Of a stretch of DNA of 64,000 nt, positions 37,421-54,536 are shown piece by piece (the first letter of the stretch is position 1; every line of letters starts with the position of its first letter). The notes beneath the pieces were generated by a model, which was not told the origin of the DNA, made no database searches, and worked only from the letters and a program-made list of their open reading frames with translations. The position numbers were made by a program, and so were the translations under genes. This DNA is from a virus. Location of the stretch: IMG/VR virus record IMGVR_UViG_3300042386_001493, positions 1 to 64,000 of that record; one strand, 5' to 3'.

Positions 37421-39454
37421 CTAGTATAATTTAATTTCGCAAGCGTCTGTTGAGCAATACTTTTCAGACTCTGCGTCAAGATTATCCTTGCCATCATAGA
37501 TAGCGGACCAATCAATTTTACCAATTTTTCCAACGTAAGAGTTATATTCTTCTCTTGTAATATTTGTATATGGTTGTTGAGGATAAGTTTTATTACCCAT
37601 CGGCAGAAATGAAACTGCCTTTAATTGACCTTCATACATGTGTAATGCTGGAGCAATATGCTTAGTCTCAGATTCCTTGTCAAATGATAAAGTTACAGAT
37701 ACTCCATTGTCAGACCAATACTTTTGAGCGGTAGCAGCCAAACCAATCTTTTCAAAAAGACTTACATCTTTTTCAGAACGAGGATGTCCAGATGCTACTG
37801 GGAAATATACTACTGAAGTGTTTGCAGATACTACGTCATCTTCAATTTTATACCCTGCCGCTTTAAATAAATGCACCATTGGATCTGTATTGCCAAACCT
37901 TATAGCACGAAGATAGAATTCTCCTCCTGGACCCCAATGAACTCCTGGTGTTGCACCAGATAATAGGGAAACAGATCCTGAAGGTTTGACGGTAGTTACA
38001 CGAATTGACTCACGTACACATAGCCATTCTGAGTATGAGTGATCGTATGCACGAATCTTTTTATACCCTTCGTCCATCCACTCACGAATTACTGGCATAC
38101 CTTTTGTGTCTGCAAATGATGCAATACCAGTTAGAGATGTTCCAATACGACGATTACGTTGCATAATTCCATTTGTGGTTTGCCAATGTGTTGGCATAAG
38201 TGTAACGGTCTTACCATATAGATATGCAAACTTTAGTGTACGAAGAAAATCTTCTTTGTCTTCATGACGGTTTAAATGAACTTCTACAAGTGTGCATAAC
38301 TCATAACTTTCTAATGGTTGTTCAGCGCAAGGATTAAATCCCATAACACGAGAATCTTTATAGTCTGCAGGATCTGCTAGTCTTCCATAATCTCTAGCAA
38401 CGTCTAGCCAAATAAATCCTGGCTCACCATTGTCTGCAATTAAATTAACATAGTCTTCATATTTTGTTCCAACCTCTGCAGCAATAGAATTATTAGACAT
38501 CCATGCCCATCCTGGATTTTCTGAATCAAATGAGTTTCTGTCTGGAAAAACCTCTGCATTTTTTAAATTAATAAAATCTTTGTCTTCTGGTAATCCTAAA
38601 GCCAAGGTAGCAGAACGACGAACATTTCCAGAAACAACACATGTACCAATAAGGTTAACAATATCTACAATTGCACGAGAATCAAGTTTTTCTCCTGCTC
38701 TACCGCCGATTACTGCGTCTATCTTGTTATGTAGTGCAATGAGTGGTGCTGGACCGCTAGCAACCCCTCCAAAGCCTTTTATAGGGGCACCTAGAGGACG
38801 GATAAGGTCGTAGTTAAACTTTTGTATAGCCTGATTAGGACGTAGGTATGAGTTTAATAACATTCTTACAGAGTCTACCCAACCTTCACGAGTATCTGGA
38901 ATTTCCCATACATTTTCTGGCTCTGTAGGAGCATTAATAGTGATTTCTTTGTCTTGACCGACGGTATCAAAACCTACACCTATACCTAACATTAAAGCAT
39001 CCATAACCCAAGCAAACAATGCTCCTGGATCATTACGATCAATATCACGAGTAGACACCATTGCACAGTTTTGTAGAGAAGCAGAGTTGCGCTTTTCCAT
39101 AGTCATAGGAGTTCCAAATGCCCAAAGACCTCTACCTGGCGGAGTCCATTTTAAATTAAACATACGGTCATATGCTTCTTGAGCAGATTTTTGACTCTTG
39201 TTATCGTTCCACGGTAGACGATTATCTTTAGCGTGGTTTTTTTGTACTGAGTACATTCCTTCAATTACCCGCTTACAAACCTCATGCCATCTTTCTTTTG
39301 TTCCGTCTTCTTTCATACGAGAGTATGTGCGTATAAACGTAATTTCTCCTAATGAATTAGAGCCTGCGTCTGAGAATCCAAAGGGTGCAGGAGTTAATGA
39401 GTACTTTGTTACAAAGTCCTCTGATAGACGAAATGAGAATACGCTTTCTGACAT
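37421..39454 (-). CDS. nrdJ: Adenosylcobalamin-dependent ribonucleotide reductase, class II
   Basis: A 677-residue monomeric class II reductase like the Lactobacillus leichmannii enzyme, which makes deoxyribonucleotides from ribonucleoside triphosphates using coenzyme B12. Key residues are in place: C130 in LQNCAMVS, the NPCAEQPLESYELC segment with C376, E378 and C387 (the same 2- and 11-residue spacing as C408, E410, C419), and a C-terminal CSTDAC (C667, C672) that shuttles electrons from thioredoxin. Because B12 is required, the phage relies on host or environmental cobalamin. It is transcribed divergently from a glycosyltransferase-like gene; a TGATATACT motif lies 61 bases upstream of the start. 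Confidence 0.93.
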   Translation of the reverse strand: MSESVFSFRLSEDFVTKYSLTPAPFGFSDAGSNSLGEITFIRTYSRMKEDGTKERWHEVCKRVIEGMYSVQKNHAKDNRLPWNDNKSQKSAQEAYDRMFNLKWTPPGRGLWAFGTPMTMEKRNSASLQNCAMVSTRDIDRNDPGALFAWVMDALMLGIGVGFDTVGQDKEITINAPTEPENVWEIPDTREGWVDSVRMLLNSYLRPNQAIQKFNYDLIRPLGAPIKGFGGVASGPAPLIALHNKIDAVIGGRAGEKLDSRAIVDIVNLIGTCVVSGNVRRSATLALGLPEDKDFINLKNAEVFPDRNSFDSENPGWAWMSNNSIAAEVGTKYEDYVNLIADNGEPGFIWLDVARDYGRLADPADYKDSRVMGFNPCAEQPLESYELCTLVEVHLNRHEDKEDFLRTLKFAYLYGKTVTLMPTHWQTTNGIMQRNRRIGTSLTGIASFADTKGMPVIREWMDEGYKKIRAYDHSYSEWLCVRESIRVTTVKPSGSVSLLSGATPGVHWGPGGEFYLRAIRFGNTDPMVHLFKAAGYKIEDDVVSANTSVVYFPVASGHPRSEKDVSLFEKIGLAATAQKYWSDNGVSVTLSFDKESETKHIAPALHMYEGQLKAVSFLPMGNKTYPQQPYTNITREEYNSYVGKIGKIDWSAIYDGKDNLDAESEKYCSTDACEIKLY

Positions 39455-39670: not shown

Positions 39671-40327
39671 ATGAATAATGTTTGGATAGTAGTTCCAGTT
39701 ATTTCTAACGATATTGATTTAACATCATATGTTGATAGACTATCTGGCGGCTATACCGCCCCAGAAACATATGAAAAAACTGTTTTTAACCCTGAAACAC
39801 AAGCAAGTGAAAAAGAAGATGTGGCTCATCCATATGCTGGTCAAGTGTCACATGATTTTTCAAATAAAATTATTTTTGTAAACAAAGTAGACGGGTACGG
39901 CGAGTATGAAGGCGTAGTTCATTTGGAAGATTTTAATGATATAGGCATATATCGTTATTGGAATACTGGACTAGAGTATGCTTTTGCAAATGGGGCAGAC
40001 TCAGTAATCTTAACAAATGGTGTTTTTGAATTTGATCCATTTGTAATTAAAGAAGCATATGATGAATTTTCTAAGGGTGAATCAGAGGTTATAAATATCT
40101 CTGATGGGGCTATGTTGTTAGTTTCATCATCTTCTAGCCTACGTGCTGATGAGCAATTTCAAATATGGTTTGGTGATAATGATTTTTATCGTAGAGCAGA
40201 GCCTGTATTAGGATATTCTCGTTCAGAATATTTATGGGGAGATTATTTAATTGATTCTAGTTCTACCGAATCTTTTGATAGCATTGTTGCTTCTGATCAA
40301 GTAAAATATAATGCTAAGTGGAACTAA
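39671..40327 (+). CDS. Glycosyltransferase-like protein (GT-A fold, possibly degenerate)
   Basis: A 218-residue rightward gene started at the ATG at 39671, which has GGAGGTG immediately upstream and a TGGTATAAT promoter motif at 39632-39640. It begins NNVWIVVPVISN and includes IYRYWNTGLEYAFANGADSV followed by ILTNGVFEFDP, the pattern of a GT-A nucleotide-sugar-binding domain. The usual acidic DxD is not seen; NG takes its place, so it may be inactive or bind differently. Its stop overlaps the convergent glycosyltransferase by 14 bases. It is one of only three rightward genes in the window. Confidence 0.55.
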   Translation: MNNVWIVVPVISNDIDLTSYVDRLSGGYTAPETYEKTVFNPETQASEKEDVAHPYAGQVSHDFSNKIIFVNKVDGYGEYEGVVHLEDFNDIGIYRYWNTGLEYAFANGADSVILTNGVFEFDPFVIKEAYDEFSKGESEVINISDGAMLLVSSSSSLRADEQFQIWFGDNDFYRRAEPVLGYSRSEYLWGDYLIDSSSTESFDSIVASDQVKYNAKWN

Positions 40328-41288
40328 TTTTTTCAAACAATCTATTCCACTCTTTAGACCTTAAATCCCAAGAGTAATTTTCATTATAAAAATCTGATTG
40401 TTTTTGTAATTTACTTTGTGTTTCTATAGACCAATAATTGTCAATCTCTTCATTTAGTGTTTTTGCATATGCTGGAATAAATGTTTCTGGTACCGCTTGC
40501 ATTGGCATAAGCCTTGCATATTCTGATCCAGTTTCATATAATGCACCAAGATTAGTTGTAACCATACGACATCCCGCAGCACCAGCCTCAACCATAGCCA
40601 AACAACATGTTTCTTCAAACGTACTTGGGTATGCAAATATATGAGATTCTTGTAAGGCTTTTTTAATTACATCATTTGTAGCGTATCCCATATAATTAAC
40701 GTTTTTCATATTACGGGCTATTTCAAAATGTTCTTCGTATACCCCGTTTGTATGAGCCTCATATCCAGTTCCATACATCTTTGCTGATGAATAAATATCA
40801 AGTTCAACATCATCTCTATTTAGCATTTCAAATGCTGGCAAAAGCATGTCTAATCCACGAAATGGGGCAGAAGTATAAATTAACTTTATCTTGCCATCTT
40901 TTGTCTTAGGTTTAAACTCTATTGGGTCAATAGCATTTTTAATTACATATGCATTTTCAAGAGGGATTTTAAATATCCAGCGATACTTTTCATGTTGCCA
41001 GTGAGAAATATATACAAATGAATTTATGGCATTCATAAATAAGGGATCTGTATATCCTGATCTTAACGATTCATCACTATGAGCCAAATGCTGCCATAGC
41101 AAATTCTTTTTTGTATATTTTACATTTTTAAAATATGGATTAGATAGCAAAAGGTTAATATCTTTATGCTGTGCTATATTAGTATATTTATATAGTCCAG
41201 ATTTTAATATTTCTGTACCGCCCATTGGGGGCAAAGATTCTTCTACCACCCCAATATCGTTTTGTGGAACCTGCTGCAACCAATCCAT
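40314..41288 (-). CDS. Glycosyltransferase, GT4-like
   Basis: A 324-residue GT-B protein started at the ATG at 41288, with AGGAGAT just upstream. It has GGTEILKSGLYKYT near the N-terminus, AYVIKNAIDPIEFKP in the linker, KLIYTSAPFRGLDMLLPAFE at the start of the C-terminal domain and the E-x7-E signature EETCCLAMVEAG. It would transfer a sugar from an NDP donor. Its target could be a virion protein or a cell-surface glycan. It is last in a leftward cluster with a sulfotransferase and two GT-A proteins. Confidence 0.8.
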   Translation of the reverse strand: MDWLQQVPQNDIGVVEESLPPMGGTEILKSGLYKYTNIAQHKDINLLLSNPYFKNVKYTKKNLLWQHLAHSDESLRSGYTDPLFMNAINSFVYISHWQHEKYRWIFKIPLENAYVIKNAIDPIEFKPKTKDGKIKLIYTSAPFRGLDMLLPAFEMLNRDDVELDIYSSAKMYGTGYEAHTNGVYEEHFEIARNMKNVNYMGYATNDVIKKALQESHIFAYPSTFEETCCLAMVEAGAAGCRMVTTNLGALYETGSEYARLMPMQAVPETFIPAYAKTLNEEIDNYWSIETQSKLQKQSDFYNENYSWDLRSKEWNRLFEKISST

Positions 41289-41296
41289 GCTATCTC

Positions 41297-42019
41297 CTAA
41301 TTGTAAGTTTTTTTCTGCCAAAACTGTTGTTTATATGAACGAACTATTTTTGATTTTAATAAGAAACCATTTTTACGATTTTCTTCTTCATCAAATTCTA
41401 CAACATCGCTTTTCCAGTCTTCTCTCTTAAATGGAATAACCTGACAGATAGGAGTTCCCTTTTCAAGAATAAAAACATTTTTGTCAATTATGGAATCCAA
41501 TAGTTGAAATGGAAACTCAACACCAAGTTTATACATATCAGTATCCACAACACCAGAAAATGTTCTAAATGGAAGATCGTGCCTGTTTGTTGGGTGCGTA
41601 AACAGACAACTATAGCCTTTTGGAGTAATAACTCTCCATCCTGGTCTCCACTTAAGAAGACTTGAAGAGCCACCAAATGGTCCTGGTAATCCTGGTGCTT
41701 GATCTGGTCCGTGTTGTCCTATAAGATTAATATTTGTTGCCCAACGAACATTAATCATTCCTTTATCATTTTTTCTAAACTCCATATCAAATGGTAATTC
41801 AAACATGTAGCCTGTACTTAAAGCGTCAAGAAAAGGAGAGCATCCCTTTAATGTTAAGTTACTAACTGCAACCCCATCTTTTGATAAACCGTCTAATTTT
41901 TCTTCATCCATTCTTGTTGGCATATCTTTATACCATTGTGGAAGAGACTGAACTGCTGGCTTTGGACTTTCAAACAAAAGTTCTGTTTCTTTATCAAATG
42001 CTTCAAATTGTAATTTCAT
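41297..42019 (-). CDS. DUF6065-like protein
   Basis: A 240-residue protein with a characteristic but functionally unknown pattern: LPQWYKDMPT near the N-terminus, GCSPFLDALSTGY, WATNINLIGQHG, GWRVITPKGYSCLFTHPTNR and FILEKGTPICQVIPFKRE. I recognise this as the family usually called DUF6065, seen in phages and bacteria; the name is from memory and not checked. A second member lies at 57852-58568 beside the oxygenases. Each copy sits within a cluster of modifying enzymes, so it may hold or sense a small-molecule substrate. It is followed by the GT4 gene with an eight-base gap. Confidence 0.55.
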   Translation of the reverse strand: MKLQFEAFDKETELLFESPKPAVQSLPQWYKDMPTRMDEEKLDGLSKDGVAVSNLTLKGCSPFLDALSTGYMFELPFDMEFRKNDKGMINVRWATNINLIGQHGPDQAPGLPGPFGGSSSLLKWRPGWRVITPKGYSCLFTHPTNRHDLPFRTFSGVVDTDMYKLGVEFPFQLLDSIIDKNVFILEKGTPICQVIPFKREDWKSDVVEFDEEENRKNGFLLKSKIVRSYKQQFWQKKTYN

Positions 42020-42723
42020 TATTTATTTTCCTGTGGATAATTTTTTTGTAAAACATCCATCCAATGAAGTTTAAATGTTTTTTGATGAGTTACTCTAACT
42101 TTGGGATCCGCCCAAATTTCAAAACCAGAATTAATGGCTTTTGTGCACCAAGAAAGATCTTCACCAATAAGTATAAACTCAGGATTTGTGTCTTTGTTTT
42201 CATCTGTATTGGGTATTGCTACTGGGCCAAACCAAGGTCTTGGCATTTTTTCAAATACTCCTTGTTTAACGGCTAGGAACCCAAATCCAGCCCCAGCAAC
42301 TTTGAATGGCTCATTCTTATCAAGGAGCATTTGTTCTGGCATCATTCCGCCTCTAGGCTGATTATAAATAGGAACGTGGCGATCTTCCATTAAATAGCAT
42401 CCAGAAATAATATCTTTTTCAGAATTATATAATGCAAAAAAGTCTGATGGCTCCCACTCAATATCTGAATCAATCCAAATAATTTTGTCGTAAGTCCATT
42501 CACCACTACATGGCTCTGTCATATTTATATTATTTGTATCCCAGCCACCAATTGTACACTCACGGGCCATTGCAACTAAAGATCCACCTTGATTTAAAAA
42601 GTTCCAAGATAAGCCTTCTTCATTTAGTATGTATGTTGTTTTAAGAATACTTCTCATATATCCAGGAGTAAATCCATTTCCTGGAGTAGCGATTACTACA
42701 TTAAAATGTGGCTTATTTGCCAT
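42019..42723 (-). CDS. GT-A glycosyltransferase-like protein
   Basis: A 234-residue protein with FNVVIATPGNGFTPGY at the start, IIWIDSDIEW with a DxD-type motif (D85, D87), AGAGFGFLAVKQGVFE and GEDLSWCTKAINSGFEIWAD. The fold is that of a GT-A enzyme; the DSD would bind Mn2+ and the sugar nucleotide. It is clearly paralogous to the next gene upstream (42713-43384) and the two overlap by 11 bases, which indicates tandem duplication. Its start is a TAATG-like coupling with that gene. The acceptor is unknown. Confidence 0.72.
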   Translation of the reverse strand: MANKPHFNVVIATPGNGFTPGYMRSILKTTYILNEEGLSWNFLNQGGSLVAMARECTIGGWDTNNINMTEPCSGEWTYDKIIWIDSDIEWEPSDFFALYNSEKDIISGCYLMEDRHVPIYNQPRGGMMPEQMLLDKNEPFKVAGAGFGFLAVKQGVFEKMPRPWFGPVAIPNTDENKDTNPEFILIGEDLSWCTKAINSGFEIWADPKVRVTHQKTFKLHWMDVLQKNYPQENK

Positions 42724-43384
42724 AGTTATCTAACCTTACCTTTACTTTTTTATAATGCGACAAACTTACTGTAGGATCTAAGTATATCTTAAATCCTGCT
42801 TTCTGTGCTTTTTTGCACCAAGAAAAATCTTCTCCGTAAGGAATAAAAATTTCTTTTTCCCCATCTTCTGAAGTCATTTTTTCAAATACTGACTCAAACC
42901 ATGGTCTTTTTATATTTTCAAATACGCCTTGTTTCATTGCTATAAAACCAAATCCTGCAGCAAAAATTTCTTCTTCCTTATTGCTTTTTAAAATTTTATC
43001 AATTTCTGTTGCTGCATCTTCTACTGCTACAGAAAACATTGGTACCATTTTTTCATTAAAATATAAACCAGAAACAATATCTTTATCAGATTCATATATT
43101 TTCATAAAGTCTGTTATTTCCCATCCAATATCAGAATCAATCCAAAAAATTTTATCATATGTTACTTGTCCACGAACTGGGCTATTATTAAAAGGATCGA
43201 GATATTGATCCCCCATTGCTGTTGCTTCTCTAGCGGTACTAACCATAGATGAATATTCATTTAAGAACATATATGAAATACCTACTTGATTTAGATATGA
43301 AATAGTTTGTATTAGACTTTTTACATATTCTGCTTCCATATTTCTACCAGGAGTAGCGATAAGAATATTTACATGTGGATTCAT
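42713..43384 (-). CDS. GT-A glycosyltransferase-like protein, tandem paralogue
   Basis: A 223-residue protein started at the ATG at 43384, coupled by TAATG to the sulfotransferase and preceded by GGAGAA. It shares the architecture of the neighbouring GT-A protein: NILIATPGRNMEAEY, FWIDSDIGW (D83, D85), AAGFGFIAMKQGVFEN and YGEDFSWCKKAQKAGF. The two may act in sequence on the same glycan or have diverged in donor sugar. The DxD motif is intact. Confidence 0.72.
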   Translation of the reverse strand: MNPHVNILIATPGRNMEAEYVKSLIQTISYLNQVGISYMFLNEYSSMVSTAREATAMGDQYLDPFNNSPVRGQVTYDKIFWIDSDIGWEITDFMKIYESDKDIVSGLYFNEKMVPMFSVAVEDAATEIDKILKSNKEEEIFAAGFGFIAMKQGVFENIKRPWFESVFEKMTSEDGEKEIFIPYGEDFSWCKKAQKAGFKIYLDPTVSLSHYKKVKVRLDNYGK

Positions 43385-44199
43385 TAGTTTCTCCAAAATT
43401 CTTGACCAGAATATTTATTTATTACATATTCAGATAATAGTTCTTGTTTATTTATATTTCGACGGGATATAGAAGATCTTACATCATGTTGTCCTATAAG
43501 TCCATAGACATTATCATCTTCTTTAATGTTGTTTGCTATATTTGAATAATCATGGGTAAATCTTTCAATACCGTAAAAATCATAAATCTTGTTAATTTCT
43601 TCTTCTGGATTTGCTATTAAATCATCGTATTCTACAAAATGGAAATACTTTCTGTTGTCTGGATGCATTGCAAATGCTATACCATATAAGCAGTTATCAA
43701 TAATGCCTTTTGGTCTCATTAAACTATCACACCTAATATCATCTGCTGGACGGTAAAAATTAAATTCCTGTCTTGTCTGTATTTCAGAATCAATAAAATT
43801 ATTTTTATTTGGATTTTTCTTAACTAGACTTATAAATGATGCAAGGATATCTGTTATTCCTCTTATTGGTAGTATTATTTTTGGTTCATATCCAAGATTT
43901 CTTTGCAATACCCCGAAATGTTCAGGCATTGACCATTCTCTTGATTTATCAATAATGATAGGTTTATTTGTATCAGAGTAGTATCCTTCTAATACCCCCA
44001 TAATTGTATTTGGCATTACTACAGGTTTGGGATATGCAGAGTATTGTTCTGATGCCAAAATACTACGTTCTAAATTAAATATCATTCCACACATAGGTGA
44101 ATTTGCTGATGAATAAATATCAGGATTTTGATTTAATATAGATGATATTAGAGTACTACCAGATCTTGGAAGACCTGCCATAAAATAAAAATTTTTCAT
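43384..44199 (-). CDS. Sulfotransferase family protein
   Basis: A 271-residue protein with a 5'-phosphosulfate-binding loop at GLPRSGST (residues 9-16) and a 3'-phosphate segment KIILPIRGITDILASF, the signatures of PAPS-dependent sulfotransferases. It would transfer sulfate to a sugar or protein hydroxyl. It opens the sugar-modification operon; the four genes that follow are coupled by overlaps. The start has GGGGGT upstream and a TGCTATAAT promoter motif at 44218-44226 that sits between the arms of a 7-bp inverted repeat. Sulfotransferases are uncommon in phages, and their substrates there are mostly unknown. Confidence 0.78.
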   Translation of the reverse strand: MKNFYFMAGLPRSGSTLISSILNQNPDIYSSANSPMCGMIFNLERSILASEQYSAYPKPVVMPNTIMGVLEGYYSDTNKPIIIDKSREWSMPEHFGVLQRNLGYEPKIILPIRGITDILASFISLVKKNPNKNNFIDSEIQTRQEFNFYRPADDIRCDSLMRPKGIIDNCLYGIAFAMHPDNRKYFHFVEYDDLIANPEEEINKIYDFYGIERFTHDYSNIANNIKEDDNVYGLIGQHDVRSSISRRNINKQELLSEYVINKYSGQEFWRN

Positions 44200-44246: not shown

Positions 44247-47200
44247 TTATGCAAGTTCAATATCAGTTAAATTATAATTAGATATTGGTAATGTCAATGC
44301 TTGAGTAGTCCATGTAGCACCATCAGTTGATACATATATGCCTAGGTTTTCATTTACTGTTGAGGTATTTATGTCTCCTGATCCTGAAATTGCTGTCCAT
44401 AGGTTGTTGCCATAGGCTACTGAAAATATATCATTTACAAAGTTTAAGGTTTTGGTAGTCCAGGTTACTCCATCGGTTGAAGTTCTTAGGGCTCCAAAAT
44501 TGCCACCTGCTACCCAAATACTGTTTCCGTAGGCTATTGATCGTATAGTTCCACTTCCAAAGTTTGAAGTTTGTGTGGTCCAGGTTGTGCCATCTGTTGA
44601 GGTACGGAGTGTGCCTGAAATTCCACCTGCTATCCAGAGGTTATTTCCGTAGGCTACTGATATTATACGTGTAGTTCCAAAGTTAGAGGTGCGTGTAGTC
44701 CAGGTTATGGCATCGGTTGAGGTGCGCAATTGGCCTCCATCCCCACCTGCTATCCAAAGGCTGTTGCCGTAGGCTGCTGACCATATAGTGGTATTTCCAA
44801 AGTTAGAGGTTTGGGTAGTCCAGGTAGTGCCGTCTGTTGAGGTACGGAGTTGTCCTGTATAGCCAGTTGCTACCCAAAGGCTGTTGCCGTAGGCTACTCT
44901 TTGTATTTGTGTATTTCCAAAGTTAGAGGTGCGTGTGGTCCAGGTTGTTCCATCCGTTGAGGTACGTAACTGGCCTGTATTTCCACCTGCTATCCAAAGA
45001 TTGTTTCCGTAGTCTACTGAGTTTATCTGTGTATTACCAAAGTTAGAGGTGCGTGTGGTCCAGGTTGTTCCGTTTGTTGATGTACGGACTTGTCCTGAAC
45101 CACCACCTGCTACCCACAGGTTATTGCCGTAGGCTACTGATGTTATAAAAGTATTGCCAAAGTTGGAGGTTTGTGTTACCCATCTATTTGGTGTTTTTCC
45201 ATCTACATATATTGAATAAGTGTTATTATAAGAATTTACTTTTTCTACCCAACCCAAAACTCCTGTTCTAGTTGAGGCATATGTAGAATTTGATGTATTA
45301 AATGTATAAAATATTCCTTGATCTGATGCTAATATATCTGTGTTTATTGATGTAATAATTGGTGATATTGATGGGGTGTAGGAAATTCGTAGTTGTCCTG
45401 CCTCACCACCTATTGCCCATAGGTTGTTGCCGTAGGCTACTGAGTTTATAACGGTACTTCCAAAGTTAGAGGTTTGGGTAGTCCAGGTTATGGCATCTAT
45501 TGAGGTACGTAACTGGCCTGCATCTCCAACTATTGCCCAAAGGTTGTTAGCGTAGGCTACTGAGTTTATAGTTGTAGCACCAAAGTTAGAGGTGCGGGTG
45601 GTCCAAGTTATTGCATCAGTTGAGGTGCGGAGATTGCCTGCCTCACCACCTGCTACCCAGAGGTTGTTGCCGTAGATTATTTTGTTTATAAGTGAAGCAC
45701 CAAAGTTTGAGGTTTGGGTGGTCCACGTTATAGCGTCTGTTGAGGTGCGGAGTTGTCCTGAATATCCACCTGCTATCCAAAGGCTATTACTATAGACTGC
45801 TGTGCGTATACCTGAAGTTCCAAAGTTTGAGGTTTGGGTGGTCCATGTTATTGTATCTGTTGAGGTACGGAGTTGTCCTGAACCACCAACTGCTACCCAG
45901 AGGTTATTTCCGTAGGCTATTTCGTTTATAAGTGAAGCACCAAAGTTTGAGGTTCTGGTAGTCCATGTTATTGCATCTGTTGAGGTGCGTAGTTGGCCAT
46001 TAGCCCCTCCTATTACCCAAAGGTTGTTGTTATGGGCTAATGCAAATATACTGTCAACAGCAGAAAAGTTAGAGGTTTGGGTAGTCCATGTTATTGCATC
46101 TGTTGAGGTGCGTAGTGTGCTAAAGATTCCACTTGCTACCCACAGGTTATTGCCGTAGGCTATGTCTCTTATAGCAAGGTTTCCAGAAATATTTGAAGTT
46201 TGAGTAGTCCATTGCAAATTTTGAATGGTATATGAAATTAAATTATTACTAGTAACAAAATTATTATCTGCTATTAATCCAAATGCTGTATTTCCAAATG
46301 CAGATATTGACTTTATATTGTTGAATAATGGTGTTACGGTTGAGGTGCGGACTTGGCCTGCACTACCGCCTGCTACCCAAAGGCTGTTGCCGTAGGCTAC
46401 TGATTGTATACGTGTATTTCCAAAGTTAGAGGTTTGGGTATCCCAGGTTGTGCCATCTGTTGAGGTACGGAGTGTGCCTGTGTAGCCAACTGCTATCCAT
46501 AGGCTGTTGGCGTAGGCTATTGACTCTATGCGTGTAGTTCCAAAGTTGGAGGTGCGTGTGGCCCAGGTTATGGCATCTGTTGAGGTACGAATTCGGCCAT
46601 ATACTCCACCTGCTACCCAAAGGTTGTTGCCATAGGCTACTGAGAATATAGTTGTTCCAAAGTTGGAGGTGCGGGTGGCCCAGGTTATGGCATCTGTTGA
46701 GGTACGTATTTGGCTTCCAGTACCACCTGCTACCCACAGGTTATTGCCGTAGGCTATTGCATATATATTTGAGGTTCCAAAGTTGGAGGTTTGGGTGGTC
46801 CAAGTTGTGCCATCGGTTGAGGTGCGGATTTGTCCTGTATAGCCGCCTGCTACCCAAAGGCTGTTGCCGTAGGCTATTGATTGTATCTCTGTATTACCAA
46901 AGTTAGAGGTGCGGGTGGTCCAGGTTATGGCATCTGTTGAGGTGCGGAGTTGTCCTGTATTACCACCTGCTATCCATAGGCTGTTGGCGTAGGCTACTGA
47001 TTGTATAAAAGAGGTTCCAAAGTTTGAGGTACGAGTGGTCCAGGTTATGGCATCTGTTGAGGTACGGAGTGTGCCTGAACTACCACCTACTACCCACAGG
47101 TTATTGCCGTAGGCTACTGATGTTATAAAAAAGTTTCCAAAGTTAGAGGTGCGGGTGGTCCAAAAAATTCCTGCCTGATACAAACTTCTATATTGATTAT

Positions 47201-49412
47201 ATTGATCTGTATTTCTATCAGAATATAAAAGAGATCCATTTATATTTGATATTGCTTTATAGCGTTCTGTTGTTGCTATGCCGCTTGATTTTACGTTGGT
47301 ATCTACAGAAGCAATAGCATTTAAAATACTAATAGTAGTCCATGATATTCTATCAGTAGACACTCTTGTATTTGTTCCTGTTGAAGATGCTACTGTTGAT
47401 ATATTTGGATTATATAATAAGATTGAGGTACGGAGTTGGCCTGACTCTCCACCTGCTACCCAAAGGCCGTTTCCATAGGCTACTGATGTTATACTTGAAG
47501 TTCCAAAGTTGGAGGTTTGCGTAGTCCAAGTTATTGCATCTGTTGAGGTGCGGAGTTGGCCTGTATTTCCACCTGCTATCCAAAGATTGTTTCCGTAGTC
47601 TACTGAGTTTATCTGTGTATTACCAAAGTTAGAGGTGCGTGTGGTCCAGGTCGTACCATCCGTTGAGGTACGTAACTGGCCTGTATCCCCACCTATTGTC
47701 CATAGGTTGTTGCCATAGGATATTGCTCTTATGGCTGTACTTCCAAAGTTTGAGGTACGGGTAGTCCAGGTTATGGCATCTGTTGAGGTACGAAGTGTTC
47801 CTGTATAGCCGCCTGCTATCCAAAGATTGTTTCCGTAGTTTAACCTTAGTATATCCGTATTACCAAAGTTTGAAGTTTGGGTAGTCCAGGTGGTGCCGTC
47901 TGTTGATGTTCGTAGTTGTCCTCTATTTCCACCTGCTACCCAGAGGCTGTTTCCATAGGCTATTGAGTGTATAAAAGAGGTTCCAAAGTTGGAGGTACGA
48001 GTGGTCCAGGTTGTGCCATCTGTTGAGGTGCGTAGTGTTCCTGCATTACCACCTGCTATCCAAAGGTTATTGCCGTAGGCTATTGAGTATATACGTGTAC
48101 TTCCAAAGTTGGAGGTGCGGGTATCCCAGGTTGTGCCATCTGTTGAAATTTGTATTTGTCCAGTATCTCCACCTGCTATCCATAGGCTGTTGCCGTAGGC
48201 TACTGAGCGTATTGTTGTGCTTCCAAAGTTAGAGGTTTGTGTATTCCAACTAGATATTGCATTATTATTTTCAGCAATTTGCACATTATTTATATTACTT
48301 GATCCAAATCCAGCATCTATTGTTGTCCATGATATGGAGTCGGTAGAAAATAAGAGTCTATTATTGTTCCCGCCGACAATATAATTATTTAAAGTAGGAT
48401 TATATGAAATATCGTTTAAAGAATCATCTGCTGAAGTGCGGATTTGTCCTTGATTTCCACCTGCTACCCAGAGGCTGTTGCCATAGGCTACTGAGTATAT
48501 ATCTGAAGTTCCAAAGTTAGAGGTTTGGGTGGTCCAGGTTATGGTATCTGTTGAGGTGCGCAATTGGCCATATTGCCCACCTGCTACCCAAAGACTGTTG
48601 CCGTAGGCTACTGAGAATATACTTGTATTACCAAGGTTTGAGGTTCTGGTAGTCCAGGTTGTGCCATCTGTTGATGTGCGTAGTTGTCCTGAATTTCCAC
48701 CTGCTATCCAAAGGTTATTGCCGTAGGCTATTGAGCCTATAGATGTACCACCAAAGTTGGAGGTTTGGGTAGTCCAGGTTATGGCATCTGTTGAGGTGCG
48801 TAAGGTGCCTGTATTTCCACCTGCTATCCAAAGACTGTTGCCGTAGGCTATTGAGCGTATTGCTGAAGTTCCAAAGTTTGAGGTTTGAGTGGTCCAAGTT
48901 GTGCCATCTGTTGAGGTGCGCAATTGGCCATATTGCCCACCTGCTACCCAAAGGCTGTTGCCGTAGGCTACTGAAAATATATTTGTATTACCAAAGTTTG
49001 AGGTTTGAGTGGTCCAAGTTGTGCCATCTGTTGAGGTGCGCAATTGGCCTGTATAGCCGCCTGCTATCCATAGGCTGTTGCCGTAGGCTACTAATCGTAT
49101 ATCCGTATTTCCAAAGTTGGAGGTACGAGTGGTCCAGGTTATGGTATCGGTTGAGGTGCGAAGTGTGCCAGATTGCCCACCTGCTACCCAAAGGTTATTT
49201 CCATAGGCTACTGCTCTTATCTGTGTGTTTCCAAAGTTTGAGGTTTGTGTGGTCCAGAATGTGCCATTATTTGACGGTATATTAATATCAAAAGTTGTTA
49301 AATCTCCAGTAGATGATCTTAATGTTCCATCAGTTCCAGTAATAAAAAGTTTTTTTAAAAAGTTGAATGTTGATACAAATACAGCGCTAGCAGTAATTCC
49401 TAAGATTGGCAT
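44247..49412 (-). CDS. Giant five-propeller repeat protein, probable tail spike or fibre
   Basis: A 1721-residue protein started at the ATG at 49412, coupled by GCATAATG to the upstream fibre gene; it starts MPILGITASAV. Almost all of it is a 40-residue repeat with the pattern W.T.TSNFG....I.SVAYGN.LW.AGG..G.LRTSTD. There are 35 clear copies in five groups of seven, separated by 38-82 residue spacers. Such W/Asp-box repeats fold as beta-propeller blades, so each group is likely a seven-bladed propeller. The spacers contain weaker repeat-like text, so an eighth blade cannot be excluded. It would be displayed on the virion and bind host glycans. A short unique end (LPISNYNLTDIEL) follows. Confidence 0.82.
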   Translation of the reverse strand: MPILGITASAVFVSTFNFLKKLFITGTDGTLRSSTGDLTTFDINIPSNNGTFWTTQTSNFGNTQIRAVAYGNNLWVAGGQSGTLRTSTDTITWTTRTSNFGNTDIRLVAYGNSLWIAGGYTGQLRTSTDGTTWTTQTSNFGNTNIFSVAYGNSLWVAGGQYGQLRTSTDGTTWTTQTSNFGTSAIRSIAYGNSLWIAGGNTGTLRTSTDAITWTTQTSNFGGTSIGSIAYGNNLWIAGGNSGQLRTSTDGTTWTTRTSNLGNTSIFSVAYGNSLWVAGGQYGQLRTSTDTITWTTQTSNFGTSDIYSVAYGNSLWVAGGNQGQIRTSADDSLNDISYNPTLNNYIVGGNNNRLLFSTDSISWTTIDAGFGSSNINNVQIAENNNAISSWNTQTSNFGSTTIRSVAYGNSLWIAGGDTGQIQISTDGTTWDTRTSNFGSTRIYSIAYGNNLWIAGGNAGTLRTSTDGTTWTTRTSNFGTSFIHSIAYGNSLWVAGGNRGQLRTSTDGTTWTTQTSNFGNTDILRLNYGNNLWIAGGYTGTLRTSTDAITWTTRTSNFGSTAIRAISYGNNLWTIGGDTGQLRTSTDGTTWTTRTSNFGNTQINSVDYGNNLWIAGGNTGQLRTSTDAITWTTQTSNFGTSSITSVAYGNGLWVAGGESGQLRTSILLYNPNISTVASSTGTNTRVSTDRISWTTISILNAIASVDTNVKSSGIATTERYKAISNINGSLLYSDRNTDQYNQYRSLYQAGIFWTTRTSNFGNFFITSVAYGNNLWVVGGSSGTLRTSTDAITWTTRTSNFGTSFIQSVAYANSLWIAGGNTGQLRTSTDAITWTTRTSNFGNTEIQSIAYGNSLWVAGGYTGQIRTSTDGTTWTTQTSNFGTSNIYAIAYGNNLWVAGGTGSQIRTSTDAITWATRTSNFGTTIFSVAYGNNLWVAGGVYGRIRTSTDAITWATRTSNFGTTRIESIAYANSLWIAVGYTGTLRTSTDGTTWDTQTSNFGNTRIQSVAYGNSLWVAGGSAGQVRTSTVTPLFNNIKSISAFGNTAFGLIADNNFVTSNNLISYTIQNLQWTTQTSNISGNLAIRDIAYGNNLWVASGIFSTLRTSTDAITWTTQTSNFSAVDSIFALAHNNNLWVIGGANGQLRTSTDAITWTTRTSNFGASLINEIAYGNNLWVAVGGSGQLRTSTDTITWTTQTSNFGTSGIRTAVYSNSLWIAGGYSGQLRTSTDAITWTTQTSNFGASLINKIIYGNNLWVAGGEAGNLRTSTDAITWTTRTSNFGATTINSVAYANNLWAIVGDAGQLRTSIDAITWTTQTSNFGSTVINSVAYGNNLWAIGGEAGQLRISYTPSISPIITSINTDILASDQGIFYTFNTSNSTYASTRTGVLGWVEKVNSYNNTYSIYVDGKTPNRWVTQTSNFGNTFITSVAYGNNLWVAGGGSGQVRTSTNGTTWTTRTSNFGNTQINSVDYGNNLWIAGGNTGQLRTSTDGTTWTTRTSNFGNTQIQRVAYGNSLWVATGYTGQLRTSTDGTTWTTQTSNFGNTTIWSAAYGNSLWIAGGDGGQLRTSTDAITWTTRTSNFGTTRIISVAYGNNLWIAGGISGTLRTSTDGTTWTTQTSNFGSGTIRSIAYGNSIWVAGGNFGALRTSTDGVTWTTKTLNFVNDIFSVAYGNNLWTAISGSGDINTSTVNENLGIYVSTDGATWTTQALTLPISNYNLTDIELA
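44352..45185 (-). repeat. Propeller block 5, seven repeats
   Basis: Six full units and a seventh, more divergent one (TKTLNFVND) that merges with the C-terminal end. Confidence 0.8.
44971..45065 (-). repeat. 95-bp segment identical to one in block 2
   Basis: By direct reading, 44971-45065 is identical to 47557-47651, although the two lie in propeller blocks 5 and 2. Neighbouring units differ much more, so this looks like recent exchange between blocks. Confidence 0.75.
45369..46214 (-). repeat. Propeller block 4, seven repeats
   Basis: Seven units of 40-41 residues, with two more divergent units at the start (TSNISGNL and TSNFSAVD variants). A 61-residue spacer follows. Confidence 0.82.
46329..47165 (-). 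repeat. Propeller block 3, seven repeats
   Basis: Seven units, one of 39 residues. A 38-residue spacer follows, about the length of a single blade. Confidence 0.85.
47412..48251 (-). repeat. Propeller block 2, seven repeats
   Basis: Seven 40-residue units. The last runs into an 82-residue spacer that contains a degenerate STDRISWTT repeat. Confidence 0.85.
48420..49259 (-). repeat. Propeller block 1, seven 120-bp repeats
   Basis: Seven consecutive 40-residue units, each coded by 120 bases, at the N-terminal side of the giant repeat protein. A 57-residue spacer with one weak repeat follows. Confidence 0.85.
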
Positions 49413-51664
49413 TATGCGCTTAAATCCCCTACAGCCACCCAAGTATTTGCTGCTCTTTTAACAATTGTGGCGACAGACCATTGTCCTCTTAGTTTTAAAC
49501 CAGGACTTCCATTTACTGTTGTAGTTGCTGGAGTTACCGCTGCAATTGTTATTTGTCCTGCTCCAGTTTGTAAAATATTTATTTGTGATCCTATTGCAAA
49601 ATTTGCAGTAGCATCTGTTGGTATATTTAGTGTACCCGCAGTTGCTCCATTACTTAACTCAAGCCATTTATCTTTATCTGCTAGAACTACTGTGTATGCA
49701 TTTGTTGTAAATGTAGGTGTTGAAATAGTTAAAGTAGAAGAAGCAAACTCAACTGCTTGTGACACCGAATTAAGAGTGCCCCCAACAAGAATTTTGTCAT
49801 TAGTAGAATCCCAAGCAATTCTGCCATCTGTTGTAGAAGATGTAGTAGATAGAGTAAGGAGTGGTGTATCAATTGTTGGACTTGTTAAAGTTTTATTTGT
49901 AAGGGTTTCAGATACATCTTTAAGAGCAGTTCCATTCATAGAGTATGACTTACCAGAAGCAAGATTTATGTGTTCCGATGAAGTCCAAGAATCTGTAGAG
50001 TCAACCCAGTTAAAGGTTTTATCGGTTGTGCCTTTAAGTGTAATACCTCCGCCATCGGCAGTTATGTCTGTTGGAGTTTCTACATCTCCAAGAATAATAT
50101 TTTTATCTTCAACAACTAGGTTAGTTGAGTTAATATTTGTAGTTGTACCGTTTACGGTAAAGTTTCCAGATACCGTCAAAGAAGGAACTGTAAATTCTCC
50201 AGATGAAGATACATTAGCAAGGATTGTTCCGCTTGAGTTTTGCCATTCTTGCAGGTTAGCGGTTTGTGATGCTATGCCTCTAATAACTTGTCCAATATTT
50301 GTTGTAGCAGTTGTGGTAACTTCCATTTGTGCGCCGTAGTTAGTAGTACCACCAGTACGCATTTTTCCAGTTGATGTTACAAAAGATACACCTGTAATAA
50401 AATCTGAAACAAATGCGCCATCTGATTGAATTCTTGCCAATAGTGTACCAGCACTATCCTGCCATTGTTGAAGGTTGGCGGTTTGGGAGGTTGCACCACG
50501 AACAACTATCGGAGTAATTGCTGCCGTACCAGCAACAAAACTTCCAACGGCAGACAAAGTAAATGTTCCACCTGTACCTGCTACATCTGTAAATCCTGAA
50601 CCAAGAACCGTAAAGGTTGTTGATGTAACTGCTGTGACTGTCCAAGTTCCATTGTAAGTGCCACCACTTACTGATGCCACTGTAACTCGCTGACCTGCTT
50701 GCACAAGTGATGTGCCACCATAGGTAAAGACTGCAACTGTCGCAGATGTATATGCAGCCGATGTGATTGCCGTAGTAGTTGAACCATTGATGCTTGTGGT
50801 AGTCCCTGCGTATATTTGTCCAGCAGAATTAATTCCTGAAAGAACAGTTCCAGCACTACCCCTCCATTGTTGTAGGTCTGAAGTTTGAGTTGAAATACCT
50901 ATTACTTGTAAAGATGGATAACTTCCTGCTGTTGATGTGACAGCAAAATAGGCAGAATTATTTCCTGATTGAAATACTAGTTGGCTTCCTCCGCCACCTA
51001 CATATCCCATTGAACCTGAAATACGTAAATTACCACTTGCCTGGATTGATGCCAACGTTGTACCAGCATTATTCTGCCATTGTTGAAGGTCGTTTGATTG
51101 TGACGTTGCGCCTCTCACAACTATTCCAGTAGTAGTATTATTTATAGGAATTACTGATAATTGTGTTCCTGTTATTAAGGTTCCAAGATTTAGTGCGCCA
51201 GTATTTCTTAGGCTTGCCCTTACCGTTCCATCAAAATTGTGCCATTCTTGCAGGTTAGCGGTTTGAGATTCGGTGCCCTTTACAATTAAACCAATAGTTT
51301 CAGCATTAGCAGTAGTAATCTGTTGCACTCCACCAGTAAAAGTATTGGCGGTAGCAAGATAAGGAACACCAGTAATTGCTGAACCTGCTGGAATTGTTAC
51401 TGTGCCAGTAAAAGTGGGGGAAGCAAGTGGGGCTTTAGCATCTATCTGAGTTTGAATTGCTGAAGTTACACCATCTACATAATTTAATTCTGTAGAAGTT
51501 GCTGTAAGATCAACGTTCTCGTTAATTTTTGGGGTAGTTAAAGTTTTATTTGTAAGAGTTTGTGTATCCGATGTGGTAATAACTTGATTACCATTGACCG
51601 TAGCAGAGTTTCCTTCTACGATCAAACCATTCTTGACCCTAAAATCTTTATTTGTTGTAGTCAC
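49412..51664 (-). CDS. Tail fibre with repeat shaft
   Basis: A 750-residue fibre that begins with a GTG codon. Its N-terminus (NKDFRVKNGLIVEGNSATV) is shared with the next fibre gene upstream and is probably the virion attachment part. The shaft has LTNKTLT repeats and five copies of a roughly 30-residue unit (TSQTANLQQWQDSAGTLLA and variants). The C-terminal 90 residues (YTVVLADKDKWLELSNG, GLKLRGQWSVATIVKRA) are shared with the fibre at 61050-61778. The gene runs by GCATAATG into the propeller protein, so the two may form one functional fibre. Confidence 0.75.
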   Translation of the reverse strand: MTTTNKDFRVKNGLIVEGNSATVNGNQVITTSDTQTLTNKTLTTPKINENVDLTATSTELNYVDGVTSAIQTQIDAKAPLASPTFTGTVTIPAGSAITGVPYLATANTFTGGVQQITTANAETIGLIVKGTESQTANLQEWHNFDGTVRASLRNTGALNLGTLITGTQLSVIPINNTTTGIVVRGATSQSNDLQQWQNNAGTTLASIQASGNLRISGSMGYVGGGGSQLVFQSGNNSAYFAVTSTAGSYPSLQVIGISTQTSDLQQWRGSAGTVLSGINSAGQIYAGTTTSINGSTTTAITSAAYTSATVAVFTYGGTSLVQAGQRVTVASVSGGTYNGTWTVTAVTSTTFTVLGSGFTDVAGTGGTFTLSAVGSFVAGTAAITPIVVRGATSQTANLQQWQDSAGTLLARIQSDGAFVSDFITGVSFVTSTGKMRTGGTTNYGAQMEVTTTATTNIGQVIRGIASQTANLQEWQNSSGTILANVSSSGEFTVPSLTVSGNFTVNGTTTNINSTNLVVEDKNIILGDVETPTDITADGGGITLKGTTDKTFNWVDSTDSWTSSEHINLASGKSYSMNGTALKDVSETLTNKTLTSPTIDTPLLTLSTTSSTTDGRIAWDSTNDKILVGGTLNSVSQAVEFASSTLTISTPTFTTNAYTVVLADKDKWLELSNGATAGTLNIPTDATANFAIGSQINILQTGAGQITIAAVTPATTTVNGSPGLKLRGQWSVATIVKRAANTWVAVGDLSA

Positions 51665-51692: not shown

Positions 51693-54074
51693 TTAGGCTT
51701 CTATAAGCGTCTTATGCACCTTTACTGTTGTCTCGTCTGATGCCGTTACAAGTAGTCTAACATTTCCGCCTGAGTAATCTGCATTAGTTGTTCCTAAAGA
51801 TGCTGCTGCATTGATTACATCTGCGTATTCTGTAAGAGCAACGTTGTTGCCTCCGTCTACGTTAACAAGGATTTCTATGGTTTGAATTTCTGTACCCTTT
51901 TTCATTTGTACTAAATATTTAGCACTTGAGTATGTGGTTGCTGACCAAGAGTCAACTACGGTTGCAGTTCCACTTGTAAGTGCTTGTGTAGCAGTTCCAA
52001 TTAATGCATCTGTCAGTGTAAGCGATGTTGCAGTTGCTGCACCAATGTTTGGAGTTGTAAGTGTTGGAGAGGTGCCAAATACTAGAGCGCCAGACCCTGT
52101 TTCGTCAGAGATTACTGATGCTAGTTCTGTTGAAGTGGTTGCTGCAAAAACGTCCAATTTGTTGTTTGTAAGAGCAACAGTACCTGTAGCATCTGGAAGA
52201 GTAATTGTTCTGTCTGCAGTTGGATCAGTTACTGTAATAGTTGTTTCATGGTCGTTTGCTGTAGCACCTTCAAGAACGATACTTCCGTCTGAAAGGGTAA
52301 GTCCTGAAATTGTTGGTGATGTTAGAGTTTTGTTTGTTAAAGTGTCCGTTGAAGAGGTAGTGACAACATTAACACCTTCAACAGCAATAACACCTGCTGA
52401 AACTCTTGAAATTGTTGTGTCTGTAGCATGGCCTAACTCAACAGTTCCTACACCTAAAGCGGTGGAAGTTGAAGCAACTAATCCACTAATCGGTAAGCCA
52501 GTTGCATTTGTTAAAGTTCCTGATGCTGGAGTTCCAAGTGCTGGAGTAGTTAGTGTTGGCGATGTGAGAGTTTTATTTGTAAGGGTTTGTGTATCTGTTA
52601 ATGTTACTACAGTTGAATCAATATCAAGAGTGTTTCCAGTCTTGTCTAATCCTGTACCCGCAACAATTTGTCCAAGACCAGTAAACTGAGTAAAGGTAAG
52701 TGCTGTAGTTCCAACTGTAATTGCACCATCGTTAGTTAATACATAACCTTGATCAGCGTTTACAGTTCCTTCTTCTACGAATACCGCAAAATTTGAAGTA
52801 AGTTCAGCACCTTCATCACAATCTTGTGCACGATCTGGATTACCAAATGGTCGAACTATATAAATACCGTTTTCTGAAGCAGTTGATTGATTCTTAACAA
52901 GAATACGCTCATTAACAACAAGAGTTACTCCGTCAATAACATCTCCATTGTTAAGATCACTGAAAAGGTTAACGTTTGCAGTTGTTGCTGCACGTACTGA
53001 TGGTTTCCAGTCAATACCTACAACTGCTGTATCAACATAACCTTTTGTTGCTGCATCTGATGAATCAGTTGGTGTACCAAGACCTGTAATCTTGTAAGTT
53101 GCCATACTGACGTTGCCAGTTGGTGCTCCAACAGCGCTTAGTGCAAACTCTGAAGGGTCTACAGAAATTGCGCCTGTTGAATCATCATAGTCAAGACCAT
53201 TTCCTACAACAGTTCCAATTGCATCTTGTGCTCTTTCGTCTGTGAAGTATTTGTTTGTTGAACCTTCTGCAATATCGTCAGATCCAAGAGTACGTGAACC
53301 ACCAAGAGATGTTGATGTACCGTTAATAGTAATTGCTGAGTTTGATAGTTTATCGTTTGCAATTGATCCTGCAAGCATTGTGTTTGTTACAGAACCTGTA
53401 TCTCCAGTTGTTACAACAGTTCCAGTTACGTCTGGAAGAGTAATTGTACGGTCTGCTGTAGGGTTTGTTACTGTAAGAGTTGTCTCGTTAGCATCTGCTG
53501 ATGAACCTTCAAAAACAATGCTTGAATCTGAAAGTGCAAGTCCTGAAACCACTGGGCTTGTAAGAGTCTTATTTGTAAGTGTTTCAGTTCCTGCAAGAGT
53601 TGCAAAGTCTTGATCTGTTAGTGCTGTATTAAACTCTGCAATAGTTCCTGTAATTGTGTTTGTAGTTAGTGAAACCGATTTGTTTGTAAGTGTATCAGTT
53701 GTGTCTTTAAGAACTACCGTTCCAGTTGCATTTGGAAGTGTAATTGTTCTATCTTCAGTTGGATCGGTTACTTGAAGGGTAGTTTCAAAGTCATTTGCAG
53801 TTGCACCTTCAAATGAAACGCTTGCTTGAAATACTCCAACTGGTTGTGTTTCTTTCCAGGCAATTCCATTTGTTGCTTGATCGTCTGCTGTAAGCACATA
53901 GTTATTTGTTCCAACTGCTAGACGAGTTACTGCATCTGCACCAGATGCAACTAGTAAATCACCTTTTGCGTCTACTAATGCTTCTGTTAATATATCGTGG
54001 TTGTTTACAGTTGCAGTTGATCCTTCAACTACTAGTCCCGCTTTTACTCTAAAATCTTTTGTTACGGTTGCCAT
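51693..54074 (-). CDS. Tail fibre with LTNKTL repeats
   Basis: A 793-residue protein. The N-terminus [18 protein letters not shown] matches the other long fibre. It then carries several LTNKTLTSP repeats and repeated [17 protein letters not shown] segments, as seen in T4-like and marine phage fibres. The C-terminal domain ([36 protein letters not shown]) is related to the one in the next upstream protein (54090-54536). It has AAGGAGAT upstream. It is probably a tail-tip or side fibre that contributes to host recognition. Confidence 0.7.
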
Positions 54075-54089
54075 CTTATATCTCCTTGG

Positions 54090-54536
54090 TTAGGCCTTTA
54101 ATCCCATACGCATGTAGCGTAGGGTTATAGGTGTAATTCCCCCTACTGGAACAACAGTTAGTGAAACTGTGTCTCCAGCCCTTGAAACAGAGATGGTGCC
54201 AATATTCCCATCATTGTCAATTGTTGCATACTGAGTAAAGTTAACATCTGTACCGTCAATCAGAATGCTAAGTTCTGTAGAAAAGTACTTGTTAGCCCCA
54301 CCTACCACATATTTGAGTGAGATCATATATTTCATTGATCTAAACTCGCTTGCTAAAAAGTTATCAAAAACCGTTGGGTTTTCAATTCCATTAATTGTTG
54401 ACTCGTTATTACCATCTGATCCAAGATCGGTAGACCTAGCAGAAGTACTATCAATTAAGTCTATATAGTTTTGTTCCGTTGGTCTATCACCTGTTTGAAA
54501 CAGGGCTTTTACATTGGTGGTTGATATCTTTGCCAT
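54090..54536 (-). CDS. Small fibre-associated protein
   Basis: A 148-residue protein whose second half (EFRSMKYMISLKYVVGG, TDVNFTQYATIDND) resembles the C-terminal domain of the adjacent 793-residue fibre. It may be a short fibre or a tip protein that carries the same terminal domain. A TGCTATAAT motif ends six bases before the ATG and there is no Shine-Dalgarno, so a leaderless mRNA is predicted. Confidence 0.6.
   Translation of the reverse strand: MAKISTTNVKALFQTGDRPTEQNYIDLIDSTSARSTDLGSDGNNESTINGIENPTVFDNFLASEFRSMKYMISLKYVVGGANKYFSTELSILIDGTDVNFTQYATIDNDGNIGTISVSRAGDTVSLTVVPVGGITPITLRYMRMGLKA

Follow-up and report, generated by a model that had tools for sequence, protein, structure and literature searches.

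A phage gene read as a propeller of propellers: seven-bladed cassettes at the loops of a putative hub ring in a candidate tail-fibre adhesin

Beta-propellers assembled from closely similar blades have been described in several settings. In the available part of PMC9218822, WD40 blade counts are reported to peak at 7 and 14, a recently amplified protein of 14 blades is found to fold as two seven-bladed rings, and AlphaFold models of a very repetitive chain of 47 blades are seen to collapse. Several rings may share one chain: the accessible text of PMC10665379 gives three seven-bladed rings per chain for DDB1. As far as the accessible portion of PMC4901313 goes, phage examples include Gp45 of phi11, with one five-bladed propeller per monomer of a trimer, and gp131C of PhiKZ, a seven-bladed propeller at the baseplate periphery. 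The Asp-box, a motif of the form SxDxGxTW, also has a shorter variant, mentioned in the part of PMC2716378 that was available.

We describe here a gene from a window of 64,000 nucleotides (positions 1 to 64,000 of IMG/VR virus record IMGVR_UViG_3300042386_001493), which also carries genes for portal, capsid, tape-measure and minor tail proteins. The gene of interest occupies 49412-44247 of the minus strand and is a single ORF of 1721 aa with its stop codon at 44249-44247. The longest reading of the ORF begins with TTG at 49442; the ATG at 49412, which overlaps the stop of the upstream gene (TAATG), is the likelier start. The same 5163 bases are present with zero mismatches in L001, L002 and L005, which are separate contigs from samples possibly shared with that of the window. 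The protein is rich in serine and threonine (29% S+T).

A blade-core pattern occurs in 35 copies, spaced by 39-41 aa and grouped 7+7+7+7+7, which bears out the five groups of seven repeats noticed in the initial annotation. The five blocks together cover 44361-49256. Anchor-to-anchor gaps at the four block borders are 96, 122, 79 and 101 aa, an excess over the repeat period of 56, 82, 39 and 61 aa (57, 82, 38 and 61 had been given before); counted from the final strand of each block up to the opening W of the following block, their lengths are 61, 87, 43 and 66 aa for the four spacers. Among the 27 full repeats of 40 aa, the median identity between blades is 72.5% for protein (range 55-95%) and 75.8% for DNA, with a maximum of 93.3% for any pair at the DNA level, and the protein median lies above the 60% inter-blade identity that marks highly repetitive propellers. 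The repeats carry S-T-D-x-x-T-W, one residue shorter than the Asp-box and at the same place, the loop between strands 3 and 4. Every block opens with W-x-T, a lone fourth strand, and closes after a third strand, with constant phase; this is the order expected of a ring in which the last blade is completed by the N-terminal strand. The profile of DUF6242 (PF19755) scores 69.1 bits, above its curated cut-off of 29. We give this label little weight, since the protein is repetitive and Kelch_6 (58.4 vs 25.3) and PBSX_XtrA (31.8 vs 29.7) pass their cut-offs as well. The parts of the gene and its neighbours are listed in Table 1.

Table 1. Features of the propeller gene, as proposed, and of the neighbouring genes in the window.
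Feature	Position	Strand	Basis or remarks
Hub segment 1 (aa 1-52)	49257..49412	-	MPILGITASAV N-terminus and strands B-C-D of hub blade 1, assigned by eye
Cassette 1 (aa 53-327), seven blades	48432..49256	-	Repeat pattern, AlphaFold2 model and structure match
Hub segment 2 (aa 328-388)	48249..48431	-	Hub blade 2 and strand A of blade 3; blade HMM 19.1 bits in the joined hub
Cassette 2 (aa 389-663), seven blades	47424..48248	-	Repeat pattern and identity to cassette 1
Hub segment 3 (aa 664-750)	47163..47423	-	Hub blade 3 strands B-C-D and blade 4; aligned relatives
Cassette 3 (aa 751-1024), seven blades	46341..47162	-	Repeat pattern
Hub segment 4 (aa 1025-1067)	46212..46340	-	Hub blade 5; by eye and hhalign; no blade HMM match
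Cassette 4 (aa 1068-1344), seven blades	45381..46211	-	Repeat pattern
Hub segment 5 (aa 1345-1410)	45183..45380	-	Hub blade 6 and start of blade 7; by eye
Cassette 5 (aa 1411-1684), seven blades	44361..45182	-	Repeat pattern
Hub segment 6 (aa 1685-1721)	44250..44360	-	Remainder of hub blade 7 and terminal strand A, NLTDIELA; blade HMM 14.1 bits
Fibre-type gene upstream, KDFRVKNGL N-terminus	49412..51664	-	Start/stop overlap with the propeller gene
Second upstream fibre-type gene	51693..54074	-	Best match phrog_38058 tail fibre, E 1.4e-39
Baseplate wedge / tail fibre connector, weak match	54090..54536	-	phrog_967, E 8.1e-6
Sulfotransferase-type protein, next downstream gene	43384..44199	-	PF13469, E 7.5e-13

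Block 1, aligned with 42 other cassettes, was predicted by AlphaFold2 to be a seven-bladed propeller (pLDDT 96.3, pTM 0.92) whose 28 strands comprise a lone D, seven times A, B and C, and six D. The best structural neighbour of this model (VIA) was the designed seven-bladed ring 7big, with Z 33.1 and 2.1 A over 268 of 275 residues. Next came 2ymu (Z 32.3), titled a highly repetitive propeller, which we take to be the amplified 14-blade protein referred to at the outset. Foldseek retrieved many rings with cassette 1, among them Ycf48 (TMq 0.76-0.79); a seven-bladed design reached a TMq of 0.83 against 0.69-0.72 for eight-bladed designs, although the E-values were mostly better for the latter. 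At the level of sequence, Ycf48 is the nearest natural relative of solved structure (E 2.2e-5), ranked below the designed eight-bladed proteins Ika8 and Tako8. The predicted cassette 1 consists of seven four-stranded blades in a closed ring that superposes end to end on solved seven-bladed rings. Its strand order is the one expected of a velcro closure, and the matching phase is seen in all five blocks and in P0001. Structure was predicted for cassette 1 alone, the other four being judged from their 70-77% identity to it; modelled in this way, the cassettes are very probably closed seven-bladed rings, as the initial annotation had supposed of each group of seven repeats. A solenoid was also considered and found no support, the model of cassette 1 being a ring that matches solved rings from end to end.

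Seven is also the commonest unit among the relatives, which are encoded by at least 429 of the 599 stretches among the viral-contig matches listed. Runs of repeats were counted with two callers over complete runs, that is, those not cut by a contig end, and in 82 nonredundant ORFs the commonest complete run was seven. Caller one found 55 of 189 complete runs in these ORFs to be exactly seven and 64 to be multiples of seven, the other 125 comprising 115 runs of 1-6 and 10 runs of 8-12; it allows a gap of up to 58 aa and fuses the two sevens of L009 into 14 across the 20-aa linker between them. Caller two, applied to runs of four or more, counted 59 of 120 as exactly seven and 69 as multiples of seven. 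Its results also include 18 runs of eight, from L008 and window-type proteins, in which a blade of the spacer entered the count. The two callers disagree on divergent relatives, and we suspect that the short runs in such proteins reflect missed blades. Unbroken runs of 14, 21, 28 and 35 repeats are present among the relatives. The phage DSL-LC01 encodes a free-standing protein of 290 aa with seven repeats by eye, in the same phase as the window blocks, which the callers scored as 4+1 or 5+1. In L038, runs of 9, 8 and 9 add up to 28 only on the assumption of two missed blades. The sole exception noticed among hub-type proteins is slot 5 of L195 (L195:1665-2249), which holds five repeats and is possibly a collapsed assembly.

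Tandem genes with one seven-blade run each and differing N-terminal stretches were seen in L034, L037 and L032, cassettes thus occurring also as separate genes; L034 additionally has two genes with 7+7.

The sequence outside the cassettes appears to be propeller-like in its own right. When the two termini and the four spacers were joined into one hub sequence, hhalign matched it to the profile of the cassettes at 97.4% (E 1.1e-11); the alignment spans 216 columns and takes in about six hub blades in their order. Its score is 84.7, the highest of 100 column shuffles being 17.8 and the reversed profile reaching 15.2. A blade HMM gave 29.8 bits for the hub of the window and 42.5 bits for that of L209, the shuffle maxima (best of 500 each) being 8.4 and 6.7. 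The signal is spread unevenly: segment 1 matches this HMM weakly (3.4 bits), segment 3 gives 11.0 bits for hub blade 3, blades 4 and 5 of the window hub have no match with it, and segment 5, where hhalign covers blade 6 only, reaches just -2.3 bits. Against PDB sequences the hub profile found no propeller, the single match being a chance one to CheY (E 0.31), and tblastn of the joined hub against phage genomes gave zero matches even at E 10. The continuity of the hub is apparent in the relatives: segment 1 runs directly into hub blade 2 in L010, L209 and L201, and in L026, which is without cassette 2, segment 3 joins hub blade 2 uninterrupted (by eye).

According to these alignments, with the borders between hub blades, the seventh hub blade and the slot table assigned by eye, hub blade 3 is interrupted by cassette 2 and hub blade 7 by cassette 5, an arrangement that argues against the spacers being simple linkers. 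Alignments with L201 or L007 placed some hub pieces on blades and were left out of the modelling. A joint AlphaFold2 model of aa 1-1067 (hub and three cassettes, six sequences) had a pLDDT of 38.8 and a pTM of 0.30 and counts neither way, so that the nesting rests on comparative evidence. Judged from sequence, it is quite probable that the spacers and both termini form a hub ring in which the cassettes are nested. This hub is probably seven-bladed; its terminal strand A is proposed to close hub blade 1, and the ring as a whole would be closed. The initial annotation had pictured five propellers in a row. The five seven-blade blocks stand, but they are better read as inserted into the loops of a sixth ring, made of the spacers and termini.

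The propeller genes of L008 (L008:10005-10030) and L209 (L209:5080-5110) are interrupted within hub blade 3: one ORF ends in FVGGD followed by a stop, and an ATG just behind it opens the next ORF. Either two chains make up one ring together, or the break is a frameshift.

The slots differ in content among the relatives, as assigned by eye and with several contigs cut. Slot 1 is empty in L010, L209 and L201, and in L010 the N-terminus continues directly into spacer 1. Slot 2 is empty in L026, slot 3 of L007 contains 14 blades, and slot 4 is empty in L008 and L209, both of which carry 14 blades (one degenerate) in the interval from hub blade 6 to hub blade 7. Slot 5 of L201 holds 21 repeats (counted by eye). 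L209 has an extra seven-blade block ahead of its last 14 residues, before the last strand, whereas none is found there in L008. The spacers are retained wherever they are visible and are continuous where a cassette is missing (L010, L209, L201, L026).

Two further syntenic relatives were observed. One of about 1590 aa (L026:4999-9777) begins with MPILGITASAV and has strongly diverged blades; the other, of 610 aa (L216:8178-10007), has a similar start and end and about 14 blades by eye, and is possibly a hub plus one cassette.

Comparison of close relatives revealed replacement by whole blocks. Between the window and L003, block 3 differs at 141 of 822 nt, all between aa 760 and 1022, as against 9-26 differences in each other block and 0-2 per hub segment. 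Between the window and L012 there is one mismatch in the 8000 bases upstream and none in the 825 nt of block 1, whereas block 2 differs at 212 of 825 nt; the first difference lies at aa 380, nine residues before block 2, and, as the L012 contig ends shortly after this block, the upstream breakpoint alone is visible. The hub also varies far less than the cassettes. In one pair, dS is 0.013 for the hub and 0.091-0.107 for the cassettes, and the hubs of L008 and L209 are identical at 322 of 344 positions (93.6%) while their same-slot cassettes share 79-80%. Within a lineage, same-slot cassettes are 71.3% identical (8 pairs) and different-slot cassettes 70.6% (52 pairs); between lineages the values are 69.3% (11 pairs) and 66.8% (49 pairs), a slight excess of likeness in the same slot which indicates that the slots are incompletely mixed. 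The window encodes a UvsX-like recombinase, which makes recombination a reasonable, putative route. Variation by a diversity-generating retroelement was considered and set aside, no RVT_1 reverse transcriptase being found in the 86,251-base record (which is possibly incomplete).

The alternative that survives best is a chain of five independent seven-bladed propellers, like beads on a string, in which the spacers are structured or loose linkers that look like blades because of their descent from decayed ones, and no longer form a ring. It can draw on the fact that a cassette is predicted as a propeller by itself, on the strings of propellers that exist in the family (the 20-aa linker of L009 and the unbroken 28 and 35 repeats) and on the low pLDDT of the joint model. 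We nevertheless regard it as rather unlikely, since the spacers are conserved and mutually continuous where a cassette is missing, the hub varies so much less than the cassettes, and the joined spacers align to a propeller profile with two cassettes falling inside hub blades.

Variability is concentrated at a few positions of the blade. Over 31 repeats, entropy peaks at two positions of the loop joining strand 4 to strand 1 (2.0 and 3.4 bits), at one position where strand 1 begins (3.2 bits) and at two positions of the loop joining strand 2 to strand 3 (2.8 and 2.5 bits). Two positions of loop 3-4 come next with moderate values (1.9 and 1.8 bits), and many others are invariant. In general propeller geometry, loop 4-1 lies on the top face. 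In Asp-box propellers, the top face, which is variable and functional, includes loop 2-3, and the well-defined bottom is where loops 1-2 and 3-4 lie (PMC2716378, in the part available). By analogy, loops 4-1 and 2-3 of the cassettes should lie on the same, top, face, and each ring would then present a variable surface. Between the window and L003, dN/dS is 1.03 at the variable positions, compared with 0.26 for the frame and 0.29 for the hub, figures that come from one pair and mostly one block, with six positions per blade picked after the entropies were known.

The genomic context bears on function. Both upstream neighbours are of the fibre type, the gene at 51693..54074 also matching the head decoration family phrog_2647 (E 4.8e-36). 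In L009, a KDFRVKNGL-like N-terminal motif is fused to cassettes, similar cassettes occurring there in one protein with a collagen-like stretch and in another with a fibre-type N-terminus, and some relatives are situated among collagen-like genes. The spike role suggested earlier for the protein is plausible in this setting. The propeller gene is followed at 40314-44199 by the sulfotransferase-type gene, two phrog_1574 proteins and a glycosyltransferase. Similar downstream genes are present in L007, L008 and L026; among those of L026 no sulfotransferase was noticed. The substrate of such enzymes may be the host surface or the propeller protein itself, with its many Ser and Thr residues. Loci were also fetched by the neighbour gene at 42713-43396, and a propeller-like ORF was present in 33 of 73 (80 minus 7 close kin of the window), by a loose criterion, with redundant loci included and no baseline. 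Further along, at 37421-39454, the window encodes a ribonucleotide reductase with the insertion domain of the B12-dependent class.

It might be argued that the protein is an enzyme or acts in host takeover: sialidases are found among the Asp-box propellers, genes for a sulfotransferase and a glycosyltransferase lie downstream, and propeller-like ORFs recur at the 73 loci. The fibre-type upstream neighbours, and the collagen-like stem and fibre-type N-terminus to which similar cassettes are fused in L009, make this improbable. A tail-fibre adhesin with exchangeable heads has the better claim, and on sequence and context we hold this role to be distinctly likely. The protein would presumably be located on the virion and act as a multivalent adhesin, binding a cell-surface glycan or protein.

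Eight-bladed propellers, formed of seven clear blades and a degenerate one from each spacer, as the initial annotation had also contemplated, are highly improbable: spacer 3 measures about one period (79 aa over two anchors), the spacers have blade-like text and designed eight-bladed proteins top the sequence searches, but sevens persist in relatives that have no spacer (14, 21, 28 and 35 unbroken repeats), a 20-aa linker (L009) or a free-standing form (DSL-LC01), so that the spacers are needless as an eighth blade, and the 275 aa of cassette 1, modelled without spacer and thus with no eighth blade on offer, gave seven blades with the better TMq for the seven-bladed design.

Bringing together what was computed, namely the number of repeats, the fold predicted for one cassette, the unit of seven as the most frequent one, the occupancy of slots, block-wise replacement and the location of variability, we consider it probable that the protein is a tail-fibre adhesin built as a propeller of propellers, in which a hub and five inserted rings give 6 rings and 42 blades. 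For the family, a branched ring whose loops hold 0, 7, 14 or 21 blades per slot, with a conserved socket and heads exchanged by recombination, seems to us fairly probable. Both termini and the four spacers would together make up a divergent hub, with the five cassettes sitting at five hub loops. Each cassette, starting with a lone fourth strand and ending with a third strand, would close on itself, which would explain why multiples of seven persist, and every ring would show a surface that varies on a frame that does not. Whole cassettes would then be swapped, added or removed by homologous recombination within the conserved segments of the hub, a route that we infer, and the binding heads would be re-mixed with the fold undisturbed.

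If this is true, the gene offers a clean natural case of evolution at the level of domains, in which ring closure allows whole rings alone to be gained, lost or swapped, so that copy number changes in steps of seven. It would also explain how a phage can change its binding heads without breaking the fibre. Finally, the hub would be a ready socket for displaying several rings per chain, that is, a natural combinatorial display scaffold.

Repetitive propellers as such are already known, and the novelty of the present case would lie in the nested, exchangeable arrangement; nested or cassette-like phage propellers were not recognised in the literature searched, which was thin on subscription papers, so this is a weak indication. 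The highly repetitive propellers resemble the present protein in their recently amplified, similar blades (median identity here 72.5%), but in the available part of PMC9218822 they appear as consecutive rings or as parts of one ring, whereas the rings proposed here are inserted and replaced as units. Ycf48 is the closest natural sequence relative among solved structures and has a similar fold, the difference being that the matched solved chains of about 300-320 aa form a single ring, as against five rings and a proposed hub. In DDB1, one ring is interrupted by others. This eukaryotic ubiquitin ligase adaptor has only three rings, however, as far as the accessible text of PMC10665379 describes it. 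Gp45 of phi11 and gp131C of PhiKZ are propellers in phage host-recognition devices, and the available text on them does not describe cassette arrays. A last parallel is the umbrella toxin UmbA, in which, according to the accessible part of PMC13274773, a core is surrounded by multiple copies of diversified lectins, many of them propellers, that serve to recognise targets; there they are separate lectin subunits on the spokes of a bacterial particle, whereas here the rings are carried in one chain.
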